Positions 7,652-63,875 of a stretch of DNA of 64,000 bases are shown here, piece by piece. The notes beneath the pieces were generated by a model, which was not told the DNA's origin, did not search any database, and worked only from the letters and a program-made list of their open reading frames with translations. This stretch comes from Candidatus Hydrogenedentota bacterium. GTDB lineage: Bacteria > Hydrogenedentota > Hydrogenedentia > Hydrogenedentales > SLHB01. The stretch's first letter is position 1. Each line of letters starts with the position of its first letter. Position numbers and translations under genes: made by a program. The stretch is taken from NCBI GenBank assembly GCA_029552745.1, contig JAKPDK010000184.1:551372-615371 (forward strand). The letters run 5' to 3'.

Positions 7652-9583
7652 ATGATTTTCTCAAAAAGAAAGAGCGTCGGGACCGGGGTCTTGACGCTTG
7701 TTTTATTCTGGACGGGACACGCTATCGCCCAGACGAGTTCGGCAGGTTCCTTTTTCGAGACAATTTCCCGCACGTTGAGCCGCATCGGGGATAAAACCCA
7801 AGAGCTCTTGGCGCCAGCTTTTGGTCCTGTCGGCGGCAATGAGATCCTAGATTTCCGCGATAAAACAGTAGCGCGACGAGAACTCGTTCGCCATATCGAG
7901 GCGCCCCAAGGCACGACCCTATTTGTTGCCAACGAGTTTGGACACATTGAGATAGAGACATGGCGTGAACCGGTAGTTCAAGTGCGCGCAGAAATCCTGG
8001 CAGGGGCACAGACGTTCGACCTGGCGCAACAACTCGCCAATGCCATCGACGTCCAACTAGCCGCAACCGAGAAACACATTGACGTCCGAACGCGCTATCC
8101 CGATATGCGTGAAATTGGGGACATCGCAAAAACGGTCAATTGTAAGATTACCCTGCCGGCGTTTGTGAGCGTAGAATGCACCAACAATTTCGGGGATATT
8201 CGCATCAAAGATGTCCAAGCGCCTGTGGTGCTAGATTGCCGCTACGGTGCGGTCGAGTTGCAGAATATCGGGGGTACCGTACGTGCTCGAGCACGCGGCG
8301 AGTTCCCGCTGCGTGTGAATGGATTAAAAGGCGGCGGTACCTTTGAACTCTGGCGCACCCAAGCGGAATTCCGAAACGTTTCCCAGAATCTCAAGGTTTT
8401 GAACTTTTTCGGGACCATTACTATCGATGATCTCAGCGATGCTGTTGAAGCCGATATTACAAACGATAGCGGACCTATCCGAGTGGTGCTTGCGGATGAC
8501 AAGGTGCCGGATGTGCAGGCCTCTGTCTTTTTTGGGTCTTTGAAATCGGACATCCCCATGAATCCAACAACCAGCGGCGACTTAATATCCGGACGCAGCA
8601 CAAGTACACAATCCAACCAACGCCTCTTCTTGAGCACGACATTCGGCGACATTGAGATTGTGCGTCGCGAAAAGAATGCAGCGGCGCCGCAGCAACAGAA
8701 CGATACCGCGGGCGATTACATGGAAAGTACTTTACCCGAAATCGAACAACTGTTAGCAGAAGGTACGCCTGTCGTCATCGATCTCGAACAGGCAAATGTT
8801 CGGATAGAGGGTGTTGACGAAAACCATGTGCAGGTAACCGGTTCTCAAGTGATGCGCATGAAACCCGGTAGCGACCCGCGTCTTGCAGCAGAAGCCCTCA
8901 CCTTGAGGTTAGAGCCTGCGGAAAACGGCTTGCGAGTGATAGGGAAAGCTCGGGACAACCTAGAAGCACTCGGGTGCACCTACTACCGGTTCGAACTGCA
9001 AATCAAGTGCCCGCGAACCTCCCCTGTATCCGTCAAAAACGTATCCGGGGTTACCACGATCCGCGGACTCGGGGACAAAATATCTATAGAACAGACCGAA
9101 GGGCGGGTAACCATTGAAAATTGCAAGAGTCCGATGGAAATTCACCTGGCACGGGGTGATTTACAGATTAACGAATGTGCTGGACCCGTGACTGCAACGG
9201 TGGACACAGGGAATGTGAGCACGCGTAAAGTGTTCGAAAGCCAGACTATCACTGCGGGACAAGGGAAAACCGTGCTCGATTCTCCTGGAAATGGCCTCAC
9301 CGTGCGGCAACGCGGAGGCGATGTACGCTTGTTGCCTCTCGACGGCATTTTGGGAGATTTTGACGTAAAAGCAGAGGGAGGGAATATCAGTATTCTCATC
9401 CCCGATTCGAGTGACGCCGTCCTGCTAGTTACCGCGCGAAATGGAAACGTTCGTACTGCATACCCTTTGACTGGGGAAATTGGCAGAGATTTTCAACGCC
9501 TCCAAGGTAGACTGCGCCCCGAAGGCGAGGGGAAATACCGCGTGGTATTAGAAACGGTCGGTGGGGATATTATCGTGGACTGA
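7652..9583 (+). CDS. DUF4097-type beta-strand repeat secreted/surface protein
   Basis: 643 aa with signal peptide and repeated short beta-strand patterns (FGDIEIVRR, GNVSTRKV, GGNISILIPDSSDAVL). Confidence 0.7.
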   Translation: MIFSKRKSVGTGVLTLVLFWTGHAIAQTSSAGSFFETISRTLSRIGDKTQELLAPAFGPVGGNEILDFRDKTVARRELVRHIEAPQGTTLFVANEFGHIEIETWREPVVQVRAEILAGAQTFDLAQQLANAIDVQLAATEKHIDVRTRYPDMREIGDIAKTVNCKITLPAFVSVECTNNFGDIRIKDVQAPVVLDCRYGAVELQNIGGTVRARARGEFPLRVNGLKGGGTFELWRTQAEFRNVSQNLKVLNFFGTITIDDLSDAVEADITNDSGPIRVVLADDKVPDVQASVFFGSLKSDIPMNPTTSGDLISGRSTSTQSNQRLFLSTTFGDIEIVRREKNAAAPQQQNDTAGDYMESTLPEIEQLLAEGTPVVIDLEQANVRIEGVDENHVQVTGSQVMRMKPGSDPRLAAEALTLRLEPAENGLRVIGKARDNLEALGCTYYRFELQIKCPRTSPVSVKNVSGVTTIRGLGDKISIEQTEGRVTIENCKSPMEIHLARGDLQINECAGPVTATVDTGNVSTRKVFESQTITAGQGKTVLDSPGNGLTVRQRGGDVRLLPLDGILGDFDVKAEGGNISILIPDSSDAVLLVTARNGNVRTAYPLTGEIGRDFQRLQGRLRPEGEGKYRVVLETVGGDIIVD

Positions 9584-9678
9584 CCACGAGGCACGACCGC
9601 TCCGAAACCAATCGCTTGTATAAGTTCACAAACGTTTTCACTGCATCGAGGAGGTAGACCAGGCTCATACGCCCGGTT

Positions 9679-9824
9679 GTCATTGCGAGGAGCGAGTCTC
9701 CGAATGACGAAGCAATCCCCTCAACCGCACAGCGCAAGAGAACCTCGGGCTAAACAGAGTCCGGAGCATCTCCGAATTCCCAAGGAGAATGCCACGTCGC
9801 CCCTTCGGGGCTCCTCGCAATGAC
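9679..9824 (+). repeat. Full copy of dispersed repeat family 1 (146 bp, 15-bp perfect TIR)
   Basis: GTCATTGCGAGGAGC at 9679-9693 and GCTCCTCGCAATGAC at 9810-9824. Confidence 0.9.
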
Positions 9825-9870
9825 AGGGACGGGCAACACCGCAATAGGACGACGTAATACGAAAAAACAA

Positions 9871-10025
9871 GTAATGTCAAATACTCAAGAGGTTCGTGAA
9901 CGGCTCCATCATACTTTTGGACGCCATGCGGCGGTTCCTTTCCCTTAAGGATCTTCATGGAAAGTCCTCTCTTCAGTTTCTCATCCAATATAATAAAAGG
10001 GCAAAAGGCACTAGACGAATACATC
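9871..10025 (-). repeat. Dispersed repeat family 2, long copy
   Basis: Minus strand GTATTCGTCTAGTGCCTTTTGCCC...GATGAGAAACTGAAGAGAGGACTTTCCATGAAGATCCTTAAGGGAAAGGAACCG...GAACCTCTTGAGTATTTG aligns without gaps to 41782-41940. Confidence 0.85.
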
Positions 10026-10158
10026 GTTTTTACGCAAGCGTACATTTTCGTATATACTCAATACTGGAGTTATAATTTTAAGGTGCGATCACATAATGTT
10101 CTATGGGGACTCAGGACGCGCGACTTCAAAAAGAAAAGTGTAAAACAGGCGGGAACGC

Positions 10159-11037
10159 ATGACCGACAAAAATAAAACAAAAGAAGAATTGCTCGAGGAA
10201 ATCGAACGTCTTCGCGAACGCATCATGGACCTGGAGCAGGCGAAAGAAACCTCCGAGTACCTTGAGCGGTTGGTGCGAATCAGTGAACAAGCCGAACGCG
10301 AGTTCAGTAAACGCCTGAGTGCCTTGTTGGAAATTGTCAATGAGCTTTCTATGGAACCGACCGTGGATGACCTCTGCCGACGCGCCGTGGAGTTGTCTAC
10401 ACAACGACTGGGTTTTGAACGTATCGGCATCCTTTTCAAAACCGATAATCCGGAAGTGTTTGTTGGGTCGTTTGGGATCGACGAACATGGCCACATTCGA
10501 GACGAGCGAAACACCTACACCCACTTCGACGAGAATTCACCCGAATACCCGATTTTAAACAGTAAAGAGCCGCTGGTGTTTTGGGGCACGGAACCGGTGG
10601 TCGACGCAAAAGGGAAGGTTATCGGCACAGGAAGACGCGTGCTGGCGCCCATGTGGGATGGGCAAAAGGTGATCGGCCACATGAGCATGGACAACCTCAT
10701 CACCAACACGCCGATTACCGAACAACAATGCAACCTGTTTCGAATGTTCAGTACCAGCGTGGGATACCTGGTTACGAGGAAACGTACGGACTTAGAACGC
10801 GAACGGTTAATAACTGAGTTGCAAGCCGCCCTCGCTCAAATCAAGACCCTGAGTGGACTCATTCCCATTTGCGCGTCGTGCAAGAAAATCCGCGATGATA
10901 AGGGCTATTGGAGTCAGGTGGAAGAATACATCCGAGCACACTCCGATGTCGAGTTCACACACAGCATATGCCCTGAATGTATGAAAAAACTCTATCCGGA
11001 AGTTGTTGCAGCGCAACAAAATGACCGACAGATGTAA
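10159..11037 (+). CDS. Coiled-coil GAF-domain protein with C-terminal CASCKKIRDDKGYW...CPEC motif
   Basis: N-terminal coiled coil, GAF-like centre, C-terminal LIPICASCKKIRDDKGYWSQVEEYIRAHSDVEFTHSICPECMKKLYPE. Confidence 0.75.
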   Translation: MTDKNKTKEELLEEIERLRERIMDLEQAKETSEYLERLVRISEQAEREFSKRLSALLEIVNELSMEPTVDDLCRRAVELSTQRLGFERIGILFKTDNPEVFVGSFGIDEHGHIRDERNTYTHFDENSPEYPILNSKEPLVFWGTEPVVDAKGKVIGTGRRVLAPMWDGQKVIGHMSMDNLITNTPITEQQCNLFRMFSTSVGYLVTRKRTDLERERLITELQAALAQIKTLSGLIPICASCKKIRDDKGYWSQVEEYIRAHSDVEFTHSICPECMKKLYPEVVAAQQNDRQM

Positions 11038-11069
11038 GCACGTTGAGGCATCTGACTGGGAGGCACCTT

Positions 11070-11420
11070 ATGAAAGCACGTGGTCAATCGAAATCCGAGT
11101 ACAAGATGTCTATCCGGGAACAAGCAAAACAAAAACTTCATCCCGACCATAGCCTGAAACAGGCACAATATCGTAGTGCCGTCGAAAGCGAACGACAAAA
11201 ATTGCTCACGAAATCCTCCGAGGCCGGCGACCCCAAAGCGAAAAAGATCCGAAGCGAGCTAACCTTTTTGCTAAACAATTACACACCCGCCCACGATATG
11301 CGAATAGAACAGCTGATTGAAGAGTGGCGCAAGAGCGGCGATCCTCAATATGACCCCATGATACGGATCAAACTGCGCCAAGCGCGCCAAAGTCACATGC
11401 GGGAGACGCCCTCCGTCTGA
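11070..11420 (+). CDS. Hypothetical protein
   Basis: Open frame 33 bp after the GAF gene, MKARGQSKSEYKMSIREQAKQ...; no recognised family. Confidence 0.5.
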   Translation: MKARGQSKSEYKMSIREQAKQKLHPDHSLKQAQYRSAVESERQKLLTKSSEAGDPKAKKIRSELTFLLNNYTPAHDMRIEQLIEEWRKSGDPQYDPMIRIKLRQARQSHMRETPSV

Positions 11421-11465
11421 AGCAGTATTCTCTGGCTAAAGAGCGGTGTATTTTAGAAAACGACT

Positions 11466-12647
11466 CTACTTGCCGGAGGCTGGTGTGGTCTCGCCGAAAT
11501 TTGCGGCGCCATTAAACACTTTGTTGAAAAACTCTACCATGTAATATTGACACCGGTCATTGACTTCCTTAGCGAGATCCATCGTATGCGGCCAACCTTC
11601 GAGTCGGTCATACAGGTAAAAAATCCCCAGTTCTTTCAGCTTCTTCGCTAGGAGATCGGATTGAGTTACGGGTACAGTGTCGTCAACCGTCCCCTGCAGA
11701 ATCAACGTCGGCGGGTCATCCGGCGTCAAATAAGTGATCGGCGAAGCTTTCACATACAGATCGGGGTCTTCTTCGTATGTTTTGCCTAGAAACGCCTTCA
11801 CCACATCCGCTTTTTGACCCTCGGGCGCCGTCAAGTCAACCGGGCCATAGAGGTCTACAACGGCTTGCACACGGCTACTGACACCGGCATTTCCTCCAGA
11901 GCCTTCAAACTCCGGGAGATCGCTGGTATATCCTACCATCAGCGCCAAATACCCGCCTGCCGAACCACCGATGACCGCAATCTTGTTAGGGTCAACGTGG
12001 TATTGACTGGCATTGGCACGCATCCAACGGACGGCACATTTTGCATCTTCGACCGCAGCAGGAAATTTCGCTTCACTCGAAAACCGATAAGAAATCGTGG
12101 CGACAACATACCCCCGTTTGGCAAACAGCCCGGTGTAGTACTTGTAATCGGAGCGGTTTCCGCTTTTCCATCCGCCGCCATGAATAAATATCAATCCCGG
12201 ACGCAACTCGGAACCTGCCGTTGCGGGCTGATACAAATCCAAAAGAAGCGGTCGTGTACCGCCTATGTTGCCATACTCAATATCTTTGGTTTCGATTACG
12301 CCTTCCGGCACCGGGGCATCCCTGTCGATTATAGCCACCTTGCCCGACATGACAGCGGCATGCACCTCTGCGGTGGTCGCAAAACCCTTCGGAGCTGGTG
12401 GAGCGCCCTCCAAAGGTGTCACAAGGGAGGAAACATCGTCCTTCTGTCTTTCTTCTGCAGGAGGCGTCTCAGATGCTGACGAAGCTGCTGGAGCAGGGGA
12501 AGGTGTTTGAACAACTGCTGCCGCGGGCGCCTCAGTTGGGGGAGGCGGTTGAGGACTTTCCTTCGGCGCACATGCACTTAGGACTACCAGCAAAAAAACG
12601 AACGACGCAAGAGAAAAAACGCCAGGTCTCTTGTAAAGAACCTTCAT
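11466..12647 (-). CDS. Alpha/beta hydrolase (esterase/BD-FAE-like) lipoprotein
   Basis: Lipobox VVLSACAPKE; IFIHGGGWKSGNRSDYK; GGSAGGYLALMVGY nucleophile elbow; LILQGTVDDTVP. Confidence 0.88.
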   Translation of the reverse strand: MKVLYKRPGVFSLASFVFLLVVLSACAPKESPQPPPPTEAPAAAVVQTPSPAPAASSASETPPAEERQKDDVSSLVTPLEGAPPAPKGFATTAEVHAAVMSGKVAIIDRDAPVPEGVIETKDIEYGNIGGTRPLLLDLYQPATAGSELRPGLIFIHGGGWKSGNRSDYKYYTGLFAKRGYVVATISYRFSSEAKFPAAVEDAKCAVRWMRANASQYHVDPNKIAVIGGSAGGYLALMVGYTSDLPEFEGSGGNAGVSSRVQAVVDLYGPVDLTAPEGQKADVVKAFLGKTYEEDPDLYVKASPITYLTPDDPPTLILQGTVDDTVPVTQSDLLAKKLKELGIFYLYDRLEGWPHTMDLAKEVNDRCQYYMVEFFNKVFNGAANFGETTPASGK

Positions 12648-12690
12648 TTTTCAGCCTTTCTACGTACGCTCTTGTACAACAGGCAAGAGG

Positions 12691-13932
12691 TTACTGGATT
12701 TTCTCAACGCGGTAACCGCCTTTTGCACGGTCACTCAAGTAAATCAAGAAAAATACAATACAGATCACCACCGGCAAAATCGCCCAAATAGGTAGTACTT
12801 TCTCGGGTCCCAGCTTATCATTGATTAGCCCCATCACCGGGCCAGCCACCGCCGTCGAAATACTCCCGGTACCTCCGATGAGAGCAAGACCAAACGCCCC
12901 TGTCCGTGGAAAACGTTCAGAGGTGATACCCAACATGGTAGGCCACCAAAAACACACGCCGAAATACAAAAGGCCGGAGGCGATAAACCACATCAGCGGA
13001 GTCTTTGCGATGTTGCACAAGAAAAGGCCGACGGCCGCAAAGGGGGCGGTAAATGCGATCAAAGATACCGGTGTGAATTTATGCGCAATACCGCTGACGA
13101 ATTGCCTCAATGCCCACATTAAGCCGCTGCCCCACACCAGCAGCAACACCCCAGCACCATGACGGCTCCCCATGACTTGATTGTAAATATTGGTAATCCA
13201 CTGTCCGGGCCCCAGCTCGGTGGCGGCCGTCAACCACATCATCACCCACACCAACCAAAACAAAGGTTGACGAAGTGTTTCTGTGAACATTTCTGAAAAT
13301 GACACCCCTGCCGCTTTACGTTCTGTCGGTGGGAACTTCTCGCCCAGAATCATGACGGTGTAAATAACAGCCGGAATTAGTAGCAAAGCCATCTTAACTT
13401 TCCAGCCGAGTGCACTACCTGGCCCAAACGACGACGTCTGATTCAACGCAACACATAGCAAGCCGCCGATGACAATACCTCCCGGAAACCAGGCATGAAA
13501 AAGGGTCAGTTTTTGCGTTTTCTTTTCCGGGTAGATAGTGGCGATCAGAGGATTGCACGCCGCCTCCACCAAACCGTTCGCGATACCGACCAACAACGTG
13601 GCAAGGAAAAGCACCGTAAAGTTGGGAGCGAAAATAGTGAGAATGGCGCCACCGATGTGCCCTGCCGCCGCCAAGCGAATAATGTTGCCCATTCCCAACG
13701 CATCGCACAAAGGACCGCCAATAAAAATCGAGAGTCCAAATCCCCAAAATGCTGCTCCGGCAATCCACCCGACATTCGTTTTGTTCAAACTAAATACACT
13801 CTCAAAATCGGCCATGATGTCCCCGCGAATAGCAAAGGACATTGCCGTCGCAATCAAAGCGATGCAACTCGCCAAGAAAAGACGATCGGCATTAATTTTT
13901 TGGGTGTCAGAAGCGTCCGCCATGTTTGCCAT
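12691..13932 (-). CDS. MFS transporter
   Basis: About 12 hydrophobic segments; MADFESVFSLNKTNVGWIAGAAFWGFGLSIFIGGPLCDALG. Confidence 0.88.
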   Translation of the reverse strand: MANMADASDTQKINADRLFLASCIALIATAMSFAIRGDIMADFESVFSLNKTNVGWIAGAAFWGFGLSIFIGGPLCDALGMGNIIRLAAAGHIGGAILTIFAPNFTVLFLATLLVGIANGLVEAACNPLIATIYPEKKTQKLTLFHAWFPGGIVIGGLLCVALNQTSSFGPGSALGWKVKMALLLIPAVIYTVMILGEKFPPTERKAAGVSFSEMFTETLRQPLFWLVWVMMWLTAATELGPGQWITNIYNQVMGSRHGAGVLLLVWGSGLMWALRQFVSGIAHKFTPVSLIAFTAPFAAVGLFLCNIAKTPLMWFIASGLLYFGVCFWWPTMLGITSERFPRTGAFGLALIGGTGSISTAVAGPVMGLINDKLGPEKVLPIWAILPVVICIVFFLIYLSDRAKGGYRVEKIQ

Positions 13933-14141
13933 CTCGCAATTCCTCCTTCACGATTAGGATTCCGCGCCCCAGCGGAACCCGTTTGCCGCCACTATCCTTT
14001 GTGATACTACTTATGTCTTATGGGCTACGTCAACCCCTTTCTAAAGTTGACGACCCCTCCACCGGTTTTTCCGAAGACGCCCCCACAAGCGTGTCGTAAA
14101 TACCGGGACAGTTCTGTAGTGATCCTGAGAAAAACTGACAC

Positions 14142-14606
14142 CTAACTACGGGTGCGCACAACGCGTTTAATAGCTCGGTCCATCTCCCGTGTCTCTTCAC
14201 GTTCGCGGATCACAGCCCGCTTATCCACCGTATGCCGCCCCCGACAAAGTCCAATCTCCACTTTGACCTTCCCGCGAGAAAAATAAAGACGCAACGGAAC
14301 GAGGGTCAAACCTTTTTCGGCGACTTGCCCGCCCAGTCTCAGAATCTCCCGCTTGTGCATGAGTAGTTTGCGGGGGCGTTCGGGGTCATGGTTCCACACA
14401 GAACCCTTCTCATACGGGCTAATGTGTGCACCGATCAAAAACAGTTCGCCGTTCTCCACATCAGCGTAACTATCTTTTAGGGATATCCTGCCTTCCCGCA
14501 AAGACTTTACTTCCGTGCCGCGCAAGGCGATGCCTGCTTCAAACCGCTCCAGCACCTCATAATCCCGCCGCGCCCGGCGGTTATCGATGATCAATTTTTC
14601 GCCCAC
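14142..14606 (-). CDS. smpB: SsrA-binding protein SmpB
   Basis: NRRARRDYEVLERFEAGIALRGTEVKSLREGRISLKDSYADVENGELFLIGAHISPY. Confidence 0.97.
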   Translation of the reverse strand: MGEKLIIDNRRARRDYEVLERFEAGIALRGTEVKSLREGRISLKDSYADVENGELFLIGAHISPYEKGSVWNHDPERPRKLLMHKREILRLGGQVAEKGLTLVPLRLYFSRGKVKVEIGLCRGRHTVDKRAVIREREETREMDRAIKRVVRTRS

Positions 14607-14626
14607 AGCGGCTCCTAATCAACTTC

Positions 14627-15955
14627 TTAGTTGGCGCCGCGTCGCGGTCCCCAAGAAGGACCCTGACATTCCAGTCCGGGAATATTGATGCGGCGTTGCA
14701 TGCCAGTTTCTACGTTAACCGTCCAGAGCTCCCATCTACCCGAACGACTTGAGGCAAACACAATATGACGAGAATCTTTTGACCAACTCGGTGACTCGTT
14801 ACTGCCCGGCGAATCGGTCAACTTGCGTGGATCGGAACCATCTGCATTCATAACATAAATCTCAAATCCACCACTCTCTACCACATAGACGATTTTCTTG
14901 CCGTCTGGCGACCATTCCGGATCATAGGACCTTCCCCCCTGATAGGAAAGGCGTCTGAGATTACTGCCGTCCAGACCGCTAGCAAAAATCTGGGCACCAC
15001 CTAAACGGTCACTCACAAAAACAATCTCTTTTCCGTCAGGACTGAAGGAGGGCGAGGTTTCCAGTGATTTCGCATTCGTGACACGTCTTTTGCCTGAACC
15101 GTCCGGATTCACAAGATAAATCTCTGCGTTGGCGTCTTTGCTCAAGGCTATTGCCAATTGACTACCATCAGGCGCCCACGCGGGAGAGACATTCATGCCG
15201 ACATCTTTCGACAGGTAGGTGGATTTACCCGTCGTCAGGTCCAACACATAAAGAAAGGGGAAACGGTCCTTGAACGACAAATACGCGATTCGGTTACCCT
15301 CGGGTGAGAATTGGGGCAGAATGGACGTGCTGTTATGTTCCGTAACCCGCTTCAAGTTGGCGCCGTCATAATCCACCACGTAGATTTCTTTATTCCCCGT
15401 GCTTGACGTAAACCCGCTGAAACAAATCTGCGAAGTCGCTATACCTGCCTCACCGGTTAGCGCTAGAACAATCTCGTCTGAGAATTGATGGGCAATATGC
15501 CTTTTCCAATCCGCCGTTGCCGTGAACCGTTTCCCGACATACTGTTGGCCGCTTCGCACCTCAAAAAGCCTGCCTTCCAACACGATTCTTCCTTGCTCCA
15601 TCGTCACGTAAGCATATACGAGGAACTCAATCCCAGTTTGTCCCCATGCCGGGAAATCAATCCTTCCGGCATCGCTGGTGAACCCCACAAAACTTTTGGG
15701 GTAACGATCACGCGATAGCAACGTGAAAAGGCAGGAAAAGTCCAAATCATACCGGACAATTTCGGCAAGTTCTGCGCCTAAAGCTTCCTGGCCAGGCGCG
15801 GCGGCAAAATCCGGCACCGCGATGGCTATTCGTTGATCGACGCGAGTTATGTCGATCCGCACAGCGCCGGGTGCAGAACTTTGTCCAAAAGCAGACGTCC
15901 CCAGCGTCATCGATATTCCCACCAGCAGAACCCATACAATATCACACCGTTTCAC
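14627..15955 (-). CDS. tolB: Tol-Pal system protein TolB
   Basis: Signal peptide, TolB N-domain, repeated WSPDGKKIVYV/FSPDGKEIVFVSDR beta-propeller motifs. Confidence 0.92.
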   Translation of the reverse strand: MKRCDIVWVLLVGISMTLGTSAFGQSSAPGAVRIDITRVDQRIAIAVPDFAAAPGQEALGAELAEIVRYDLDFSCLFTLLSRDRYPKSFVGFTSDAGRIDFPAWGQTGIEFLVYAYVTMEQGRIVLEGRLFEVRSGQQYVGKRFTATADWKRHIAHQFSDEIVLALTGEAGIATSQICFSGFTSSTGNKEIYVVDYDGANLKRVTEHNSTSILPQFSPEGNRIAYLSFKDRFPFLYVLDLTTGKSTYLSKDVGMNVSPAWAPDGSQLAIALSKDANAEIYLVNPDGSGKRRVTNAKSLETSPSFSPDGKEIVFVSDRLGGAQIFASGLDGSNLRRLSYQGGRSYDPEWSPDGKKIVYVVESGGFEIYVMNADGSDPRKLTDSPGSNESPSWSKDSRHIVFASSRSGRWELWTVNVETGMQRRINIPGLECQGPSWGPRRGAN

Positions 15956-46299: not shown

Positions 46300-46633
46300 G
46301 ACGAATACCCGCCTCCTTTCCTACCGTTCCGGCATTATACATGACCAAGTTTCATATATAATACACCAAGAACACCCGCTAAAAGCGCCGCAAATCTAAC
46401 GTTTATGCTTAGCGATCGACACCCTACTAGACGCTTGCGGACACCCTAACATAAGCTCAGCATGTTACCCTTATCCCACCCCACTACTACCGCGGCAAAA
46501 GCCCCGTGCTTAACCGGCAAGTGCCCCTAAAAGCGTGTCCTCAGCCTTTGGACATTTTGCCCCTGCAGATGTGTAAGCTTGTAAACCTTTGGCAATACCG
46601 CCAGGAAGTAGACGAGGGCTTATACGGCGGGTT

Positions 46634-46775
46634 GTCATTGCGAGAGCGAGTCTTCGAAGCGACGAAGCAATCCCCTCAACCGCGTAGCGCAAGAGGGCGT
46701 AATCCGGAAACGGGGCTTCCCCCGAATCCCCCAGAGGATTGCCACGTTGTGGCTAACGGCACTCCTCGCAGTGAC
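46634..46775 (+). repeat. Full copy of dispersed repeat family 1 (142 bp)
   Basis: GTCATTGCGAGAGCGAGTCTTCGAAGCGACGAAGCAATCCCCTCAACCGCGTAGCGCAAGAGGG...GGCACTCCTCGCAGTGAC. Confidence 0.88.
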
Positions 46776-46814
46776 AGCGTGGAAGGCTTTCTATCCCCTG
46801 CGCACGCGTCAGCC

Positions 46815-46965
46815 CCCTGTATCCCCCCGCACGCGGGGCGACTAGTTTCTTCATCGCTTTCTACCTCCTTTTCGTTCCTGTATCCCCCCGCACGCGGGGG
46901 GACTAAAGATGCGTTGCAGTTCCCAGCTCATCTTCTTACTTGTCTCCCCCGCACGCGGGGGGACC
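46815..46965. CRISPR. Orphan three-repeat CRISPR mini-array, type I-E-like geometry
   Basis: Repeats at 46815-46843, 46876-46904 (29 nt, 1 mismatch: CCTGTATCCCCCCGCACGCGGGG[C/G]GACTA) and a degenerate third at 46937-46965; GCACGC cores at 46828, 46889, 46950, spaced exactly 61 nt; two 32-nt spacers. Confidence 0.85.
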
Positions 46966-46993
46966 TAAAAGGGCATATCAATCGGCAAACCCC

Positions 46994-47058
46994 AAAATGC
47001 CCTCTTCAATTCCTCATTCAAAAGAACAAAAAGTGCCAACGGTACGGGACTTATACAA
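46994..47058 (-). repeat. Dispersed repeat family 2, truncated copy
   Basis: Minus strand CATTGTATAAGTCCCGTACCGTTGGCACTTTTTGTTCTTTTGAATGAGGAATTGAAGAGGG. Confidence 0.7.
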
Positions 47059-63530: not shown

Positions 63531-63875
63531 GTGAAAAACAAACGTCGCGAGTTCTCGGAGTACAAAGGCGTGTGGCTCTTCGCCCTCTTCGATCTGCCCG
63601 TAGATACCGCTGAAACCCGCAGAAGCTATACCAAATTCCGCAATGCCCTCATCAAAATGGGCTTCAGTATGCTGCAATACTCCGTTTACGCCCGCTACTT
63701 CAACAGCGAGGAATCTTGCGAACCCTACCGAAAACGCATCCGACAAGCCCTGCCCACAGAAGGCCAAGTGCGACTACTTGCAGTTACCGACAAACAATTC
63801 GGAAAAATGGAAGTTTACAGCGGCAAAAAACAAAAAGAAGTAGAAGAACCTCCCCCACAACTCATGCTTTTCTAA
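63531..63875 (+). CDS. cas2: CRISPR-associated endonuclease Cas2 (type II-like)
   Basis: GTG start; VWLFALFDLPVDTAETRRSYTKFRNALIKMGFSMLQYSVYARYF...VRLLAVTDKQFGKMEVYSGKK...PPPQLMLF, matching type II (II-C-like) Cas2 proteins. Confidence 0.95.
   Translation: MKNKRREFSEYKGVWLFALFDLPVDTAETRRSYTKFRNALIKMGFSMLQYSVYARYFNSEESCEPYRKRIRQALPTEGQVRLLAVTDKQFGKMEVYSGKKQKEVEEPPPQLMLF

Follow-up and report, generated by a model that had tools for sequence, protein, structure and literature searches.

The question raised by this locus is whether three evenly spaced hairpin repeats constitute a CRISPR array, and how such an array could have arisen where it stands. A repeat search of the window, i.e. of the whole stretch of 64,000 nucleotides that was analysed, located three repeats of 29 nt in steps of 61 and 61 nt. 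The sense strand is the minus strand, as judged from how the element around it is oriented and on which side the PAM lies; in this direction, the array consists of the degenerate repeat 1 (AGGTCCCCCCGCGTGCGGGGGAGACAAGT, 46938-46966), spacer 1 (AAGAAGATGAGCTGGGAACTGCAACGCATCTT, 46906-46937), repeat 2 (TAGTCCCCCCGCGTGCGGGGGGATACAGG, 46877-46905), spacer 2 (AACGAAAAGGAGGTAGAAAGCGATGAAGAAAC, 46845-46876) and repeat 3 (TAGTCGCCCCGCGTGCGGGGGGATACAGG, 46816-46844). Repeats 2 and 3 were also found by the hairpin model. Both spacers are 32 nt long and unrelated to each other, which confirms the arrangement described in the first-pass annotation; the type I-E geometry proposed there is supported by the 61-nt period, the 29-nt shared repeat and the 32-nt inserts. 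Compared with repeat 3, repeat 2 is 97% identical (1 of 29 positions differs), repeat 1 only 69%. At the hairpin, repeats 2 and 3 agree in 28 of 29 positions, and the comparison of exact cores yields a 29-nt duplication; their flanks diverge on both sides, leaving the 32-nt insert in between. The locus would thus be a mini-array with two insertion events. The repeat hairpins fold strongly (z-score -3.3); a search of Rfam 15 gave no match above the gathering score for this feature.

The mini-array is located inside a MITE-like element copy of 488 bp on the minus strand (46570-47057), both ends of which match the terminal sequences of a family, with 4 and 7 mismatches. The left end (TGTATAAGTCCCGTACCGTTGGCAC..., 47022-47057) has an imperfect inverted copy in the right end (...ATTGCCAAAGGTTTACAAGCTTACACA, 46570-46596). 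Between the left end and repeat 1 lies the left module (46967-47021), which is the candidate leader side if the array has the polarity known from E. coli; the PAM end of spacer 2 faces this module. The right module (46597-46815) includes an interspersed repeat GTCATTGCGAGG...CTCGCAATGACA. In the window (46634-46790) and in most sister copies, the right module contains the interspersed repeat GTCATTGCGAGGAGC...GGCAATCCCC...CTCGCAATGACA, which has the appearance of a second element, either nested within the MITE or fused to it. A further copy of this MITE is represented by its left half, without the hairpin, on the plus strand of the window from 41782 to about 41910.

The element is spread through the Hydrogenedentota genome. 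In the 4.36-Mb genome, its core 16-mer CCCCGCACGCGGGGGG is present 10 times and the reversed control pattern 0 times, and 131 raw matches over both strands were obtained with a covariance model of the hairpin. Our catalogue comprises 47 hairpin loci, which were read individually and belong mainly to one family. The family layout is a left module ending in GGTTTGATCTATCTATGCCCCCCTTAG, one or more hairpins, and a right module starting with GGGGGCTGAACC or GGGGGCTGACGCG. In the copies with a single hairpin (L069, L084, L087, L098, L105, L107, L109), the modules are 33-36 nt apart; in other copies the distance is larger by about 60 or 120 nt, and extra hairpins, some of them decayed, fill the added stretch. 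The ends of the element, TGTATAAGTYCAGTACCTTTGGCAC... and ...GTGCCAAAGGTTTGTGAACTTATGCA, are imperfect terminal inverted repeats of about 27 bp. Both ends are present in 19 catalogued loci with lengths of 409-737 bp, six of which are flanked by exact 5-bp target duplications (atgat, gagct, ggaac, aatta, gagcc, ctcta); none is visible at the window copy. With terminal inverted repeats, target-site duplications and many dispersed copies devoid of a transposase gene, the element is MITE-like and non-autonomous. Note that the first-pass annotation had regarded single copies of the repeat elsewhere in the genome as an argument against an array. Such copies do exist, but what is dispersed is a transposable element, and the mini-arrays in its copies are independent of each other; dispersal therefore accounts for the array instead of arguing against it. 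Of the origins considered there, a nucleation array is supported, whereas the reading as an orphan or relic array proved too narrow. The repeat is the central hairpin of this dispersed element.

The spacing of the hairpins is characteristic. Among the 36 pairs of adjacent hairpins less than 150 nt apart in the window's genome, 25 have a distance of 59-61 nt, 13 of these of exactly 61 nt (59 nt: 5; 60 nt: 7; 61 nt: 13; 62 nt: 2; 56-58 nt: 5; four others). These gaps are not all independent, since the insert GTGTTGTTCTTCTGTCATC is common to about ten loci and was inherited. If these loci are excluded, roughly twenty gaps remain, which are mostly 60-62 nt long and have otherwise mostly unrelated inserts. 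The hairpin duplications around the inserts comprise 28-31 nt, and the spacers found at one and the same position of the element vary from copy to copy. Some inserts (among those of L064, L075, L077, L082, L096 and L108) are pieces of the genome's other interspersed repeats (GTAGGGGCGGTTCGCGAACCGCCC; CTCTGTGTTCTCCGTGTCCTCTGTGGTGAA). Such inserts would be expected if prespacers are taken from high-copy DNA of the cell itself, or they may result from nesting.

Sixteen spacers were concatenated and searched against the whole genome, and matches in the arrays themselves were set aside. Six match the chromosome outside any array, two of them near-perfectly and four weakly (85-92% identity, E-values of 1e-6 to 0.01). 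Spacer 2 of the window agrees in 31 of 32 positions with C27:119155-119186, which is preceded by AAA on its 5' side and covers the ribosome-binding site and the first codons of a 111-aa ORF. The spacer of L088 matches C25:270079-270109 in 31 of 31 positions, inside the ORF of an iron-only hydrogenase. AAG is the PAM of the E. coli type I-E system; AAA or AAG lies at most 1 nt from the 5' edge in five of the six self-protospacers of the window's genome and in 8 of 11 protospacers over all genomes, compared with 2 of 11 at the other end. Given a background of 8.2%, the binomial p-value for 8 of 11 is 2.7e-7; the tolerance of one base was chosen because repeat edges are decayed in this genome. 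The spacers thus derive in part from other DNA with a one-sided AAR motif, spacer 2 of the window included. For spacer 1, no source was found in the genome comparison, in a blastn search against phages, or in a scan of IMG/VR with its 22-nt core; in the blastn search, spacer 2 had only weak partial matches.

These data bear on an explanation that requires no CRISPR enzyme: the family could be a modular interspersed repeat comparable to BOX or clustered REP sequences, in which recombination, nesting or slippage increases the number of hairpin units. It would account for the fact that the hairpin belongs to a dispersed element, for the one insert common to about ten copies, for inserts taken from other interspersed repeats, for clusters in other genomes spaced at 49-50, 54 and 93 nt, and for the duplicated whole units of L147 and L180. 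Slippage, however, yields repeated inserts, yet most inserts are unrelated and some stem from elsewhere in the chromosome, while REP or BOX units would multiply without foreign inserts. Moreover, neither the 60-62-nt ladder nor the exact 28-31-nt duplications, the chromosomal sources or the one-sided AAR bias are predicted, and we regard this explanation as unlikely. Slippage, nesting, REP clustering and broken-up arrays have in common that none predicts the ruler, the PAM side and the chromosomal source together.

An enzyme that could have produced this pattern is encoded in the same genome. The first-pass annotation had suggested looking there for a type I-E cas operon, and contig C106 indeed contains the genes for Cse1, Cse2, Cas7e, Cas5e, Cas6e, Cas1e (TIGR03638, E = 8e-109) and Cas2e (PF09707, E = 1.8e-31). 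A longer array of 61-nt period, which had likewise been proposed as a target of the search, is also located on C106; it has 19 repeats, but its repeat ATCGTCCCCACACGCGTGGGGGTGAACC(G/A) is not the 29-mer of the window. Of its 18 units, 12 have G and 6 have A as the 29th base of the repeat, as expected if this base was left by an AAR PAM. Although the two repeats differ, the mini-repeat agrees with that of C106 in 19 of 28 positions, which is above the value of all 2000 shuffles, and a cognate Cas1e-Cas2e pair is present. The locus (L026, G000:C106:440000-459900, 8567-15900) encodes a Cas5e with a C-terminal HNH domain (residues 280-315), its Cse1 aligns with the model over the first two thirds only, and no Cas3 above the cut-off was detected in the genome, which is 99.7% complete. 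It is a type I-E system of the Cas5-HNH kind (PMC10910872, PMC11822464), with which it shares the HNH domain of Cas5e and the lack of a Cas3 above the cut-off; this likeness concerns the cas locus of C106, not the mini-arrays. A third CRISPR locus, with a second Cas1 and an array of 72-74-nt period (repeat CTTAACCCCCTAGACCTGATGAAGAAGGGATAGAAAC), lies at the start of C106 (L028, G000:C106:1-12000, 265-2414). The statement that no cas genes are near the mini-array needs correction in that the window itself contains a Cas2 gene at its right edge (63531-63875). This Cas2 is 60% identical to the one beside Cas9 and Cas1 in G008, a Candidatus Hydrogenedentota MAG of a different genus and the same family, and a type II locus is probably truncated here by the end of the contig.

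We conclude, with a probability of about 0.85, that Cas1e-Cas2e has used the MITE hairpin many times as a surrogate CRISPR repeat and has thereby generated dispersed mini-arrays. According to this model, the non-autonomous MITE would spread through the genome with a central hairpin TAGTCCCCCCGCGTGCGGGGGGATACAG(G) that resembles the genome's own type I-E repeat; Cas1e-Cas2e would take this hairpin for a CRISPR repeat and integrate 32/33-nt prespacers cut beside AAA or AAG, several of them drawn from the cell's own chromosome. Each integration would duplicate the 28/29-bp hairpin, and many copies would be hit, some of them two or three times. The outcome would be mini-arrays scattered through the genome, without adjoining cas genes. 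Type I-E Cas1-Cas2 is known to leave a characteristic signature, namely a 32/33-bp insert starting beside AAR and framed by a 28/29-bp target duplication, from which we infer that this integrase was at work. In the window's element family, the left module flanks the PAM-proximal side of the spacers and may act as a leader. All results rest on MAG assemblies, and integration was read from sequence rather than observed. The main weakness of the proposal is that three MAGs with clean 61-nt arrays, namely G008 and two Roseiflexus MAGs, have no Cas1e above the cut-off, which may be due to loss, missing contigs or another adaptation module. The self-protospacers of G008 that lack AAR, the four weak self-matches, the missing source of spacer 1 and the insert shared by about ten copies also speak against it.

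A further reading, which concerns function and can be compatible with an origin by Cas1e-Cas2e, is that the mini-arrays are under selection and produce putative crRNAs, which serve gene regulation or defence via the Cas5-HNH Cascade. The presence of this Cascade gene set and the strong folding of the repeats fit such a role. Most repeats are decayed, however, the spacers of the window have no phage match, and with active interference, exact self-matches adjoining a PAM would be detrimental to the cell; the near-exact self-matches with PAM argue against active interference from the mini-arrays. We consider a working role improbable, and the mini-arrays are presumably by-products of integration rather than immune memory. 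That the transposon picked up and spread pieces of a former genuine array, either relic or trans-served, is highly improbable: the geometry and the likeness to I-E repeats would agree with it, and the spacer common to L149 and L150 of G008 and the insert common to about ten copies indicate that some spread occurred after acquisition, but many single-hairpin copies have no spacer, different spacers occupy the same point of the element, and the genuine array stands elsewhere, on C106, with a different repeat.

The same architecture was found in independent cases, which are G008 and, from the Chloroflexota, Roseiflexus and a Chloroflexales MAG. In G008, the hairpin TCAATCCCCCCGCACGCGGGGGGAAGGC sits in an unrelated MITE with the ends CAGGGCAATCGCATC/GATGCGATTGCCCTG and, as judged by eye, target duplications of about 10 bp. 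There are loci with one (L152, L155, L156), two (L148, L153, L154), three (L149, L151), four (L147) and six hairpins (L150), and the multi-hairpin loci are spaced at 61 nt. The altered repeats at the right end of L150 suggest growth from the left; two of its spacers match the G008 chromosome in 33 of 33 and 31 of 33 positions, and neither protospacer has an AAR. In the two Roseiflexus MAGs, SKYB12 and SKYG45, a dispersed palindromic element harbours arrays with five and eight repeats and many exact 28-31-nt duplications; two self-protospacers adjoin AAG, in one case with an offset of one base. The Chloroflexales MAG encodes Cas1e and contains three 61-nt pairs as well as one self-protospacer adjoining AAG. 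Other candidates were rejected: G038, G055, G042 and G020 contain dispersed hairpins without the 61-nt pattern, and in G038 and G055, which have no Cas1e above the cut-off, similar hairpins show other spacings. Pairs in Luteimonas, Lysobacteraceae, Rhodospirillales, Acidobacteria and others were not counted, as the scan had pre-selected a spacing of 60-62 nt; in Luteimonas, similar hairpins also occur at many other spacings. Locus L164 (G055:C72), with near-identical tandem hairpin units at 49-50 nt, is an array of the slippage type, in contrast to the 61-nt arrays.

A more general reading, to which we give slightly less than even odds, is that new CRISPR arrays repeatedly arise in nature, and in several phyla, from hairpins of MITE- or REP-like elements. 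Cas1-Cas2 of type I-E, or perhaps of other types where Cas1e is absent, would nucleate an array, and transposition would then copy hairpin, leader-like flank and spacers together. If true, this would mirror, in present-day genomes, the derivation of CRISPR repeats from mobile elements that has been proposed.

The closest known system is the overexpression of Cas1-Cas2 in E. coli, which leads to non-canonical spacer integration and spontaneous CRISPR loci (Nivala et al. 2018, as cited in PMC11788318 and PMC9456107). In both cases, Cas1-Cas2 would insert spacers at chromosomal sites outside arrays. As represented in these citing papers, the laboratory events occurred under overexpression and at scattered sites, with a reported stimulation near IHF-like motifs, whereas here one defined transposon hairpin in natural genomes is affected at many loci and sometimes repeatedly. 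A type I-E array shares with the mini-arrays the palindromic 28/29-nt repeat, the 32/33-nt spacers, the AAR PAM and the presence of Cas1e-Cas2e in the genome; the mini-arrays differ by few and decaying repeats, the location inside MITEs, the lack of adjoining cas genes, partly self-derived spacers, and a repeat unlike that of the genuine array. MITEs and REP or BOX sequences are likewise short, dispersed, non-coding elements with inverted ends and target duplications or palindromes, but to our knowledge they do not carry unrelated 32-nt spacers at a fixed period, as the window's family does at its central hairpin. Solitary repeat units and mini-arrays of phages (PMC8616872) are similar in that repeat-like units or arrays with one spacer occur apart from cas genes; they resemble host CRISPR repeats and are located in viruses, whereas mini-arrays of the type seen in the window are located in MITEs of the chromosome and employ the hairpin of the MITE itself. 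In our literature search, no publication was found that describes CRISPR arrays seeded by MITEs or REP elements, or MITE hairpins as repeated natural integration sites. Off-target integration by Cas1-Cas2 is known from the laboratory; recurrent natural arrays seeded by MITEs appear to be new.

The origin of new CRISPR arrays and their leaders is an open question. If our proposal is correct, the genome provides a natural, genome-wide set of off-target Cas1-Cas2 events at one non-CRISPR sequence, in which empty, one-step and multi-step sites exist side by side, so that the needs of the integrase beyond the hairpin become testable; it would also demonstrate capture of self-DNA at such sites and link the spread of a transposon with the birth of arrays. 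A practical warning would be that some of the orphan arrays reported by array finders are transposon hairpins. As a minor observation, three inserts (spacer 2 of the window, L093 and L182) bear an AGGAG motif resembling a ribosome-binding site together with a start codon (AAGGAGGTAGAAAGCGATG, CAGGAGGCGTAAATTATG, AAAGGAGCGACGAAATG), which may be due to chance or to a capture bias towards gene starts.
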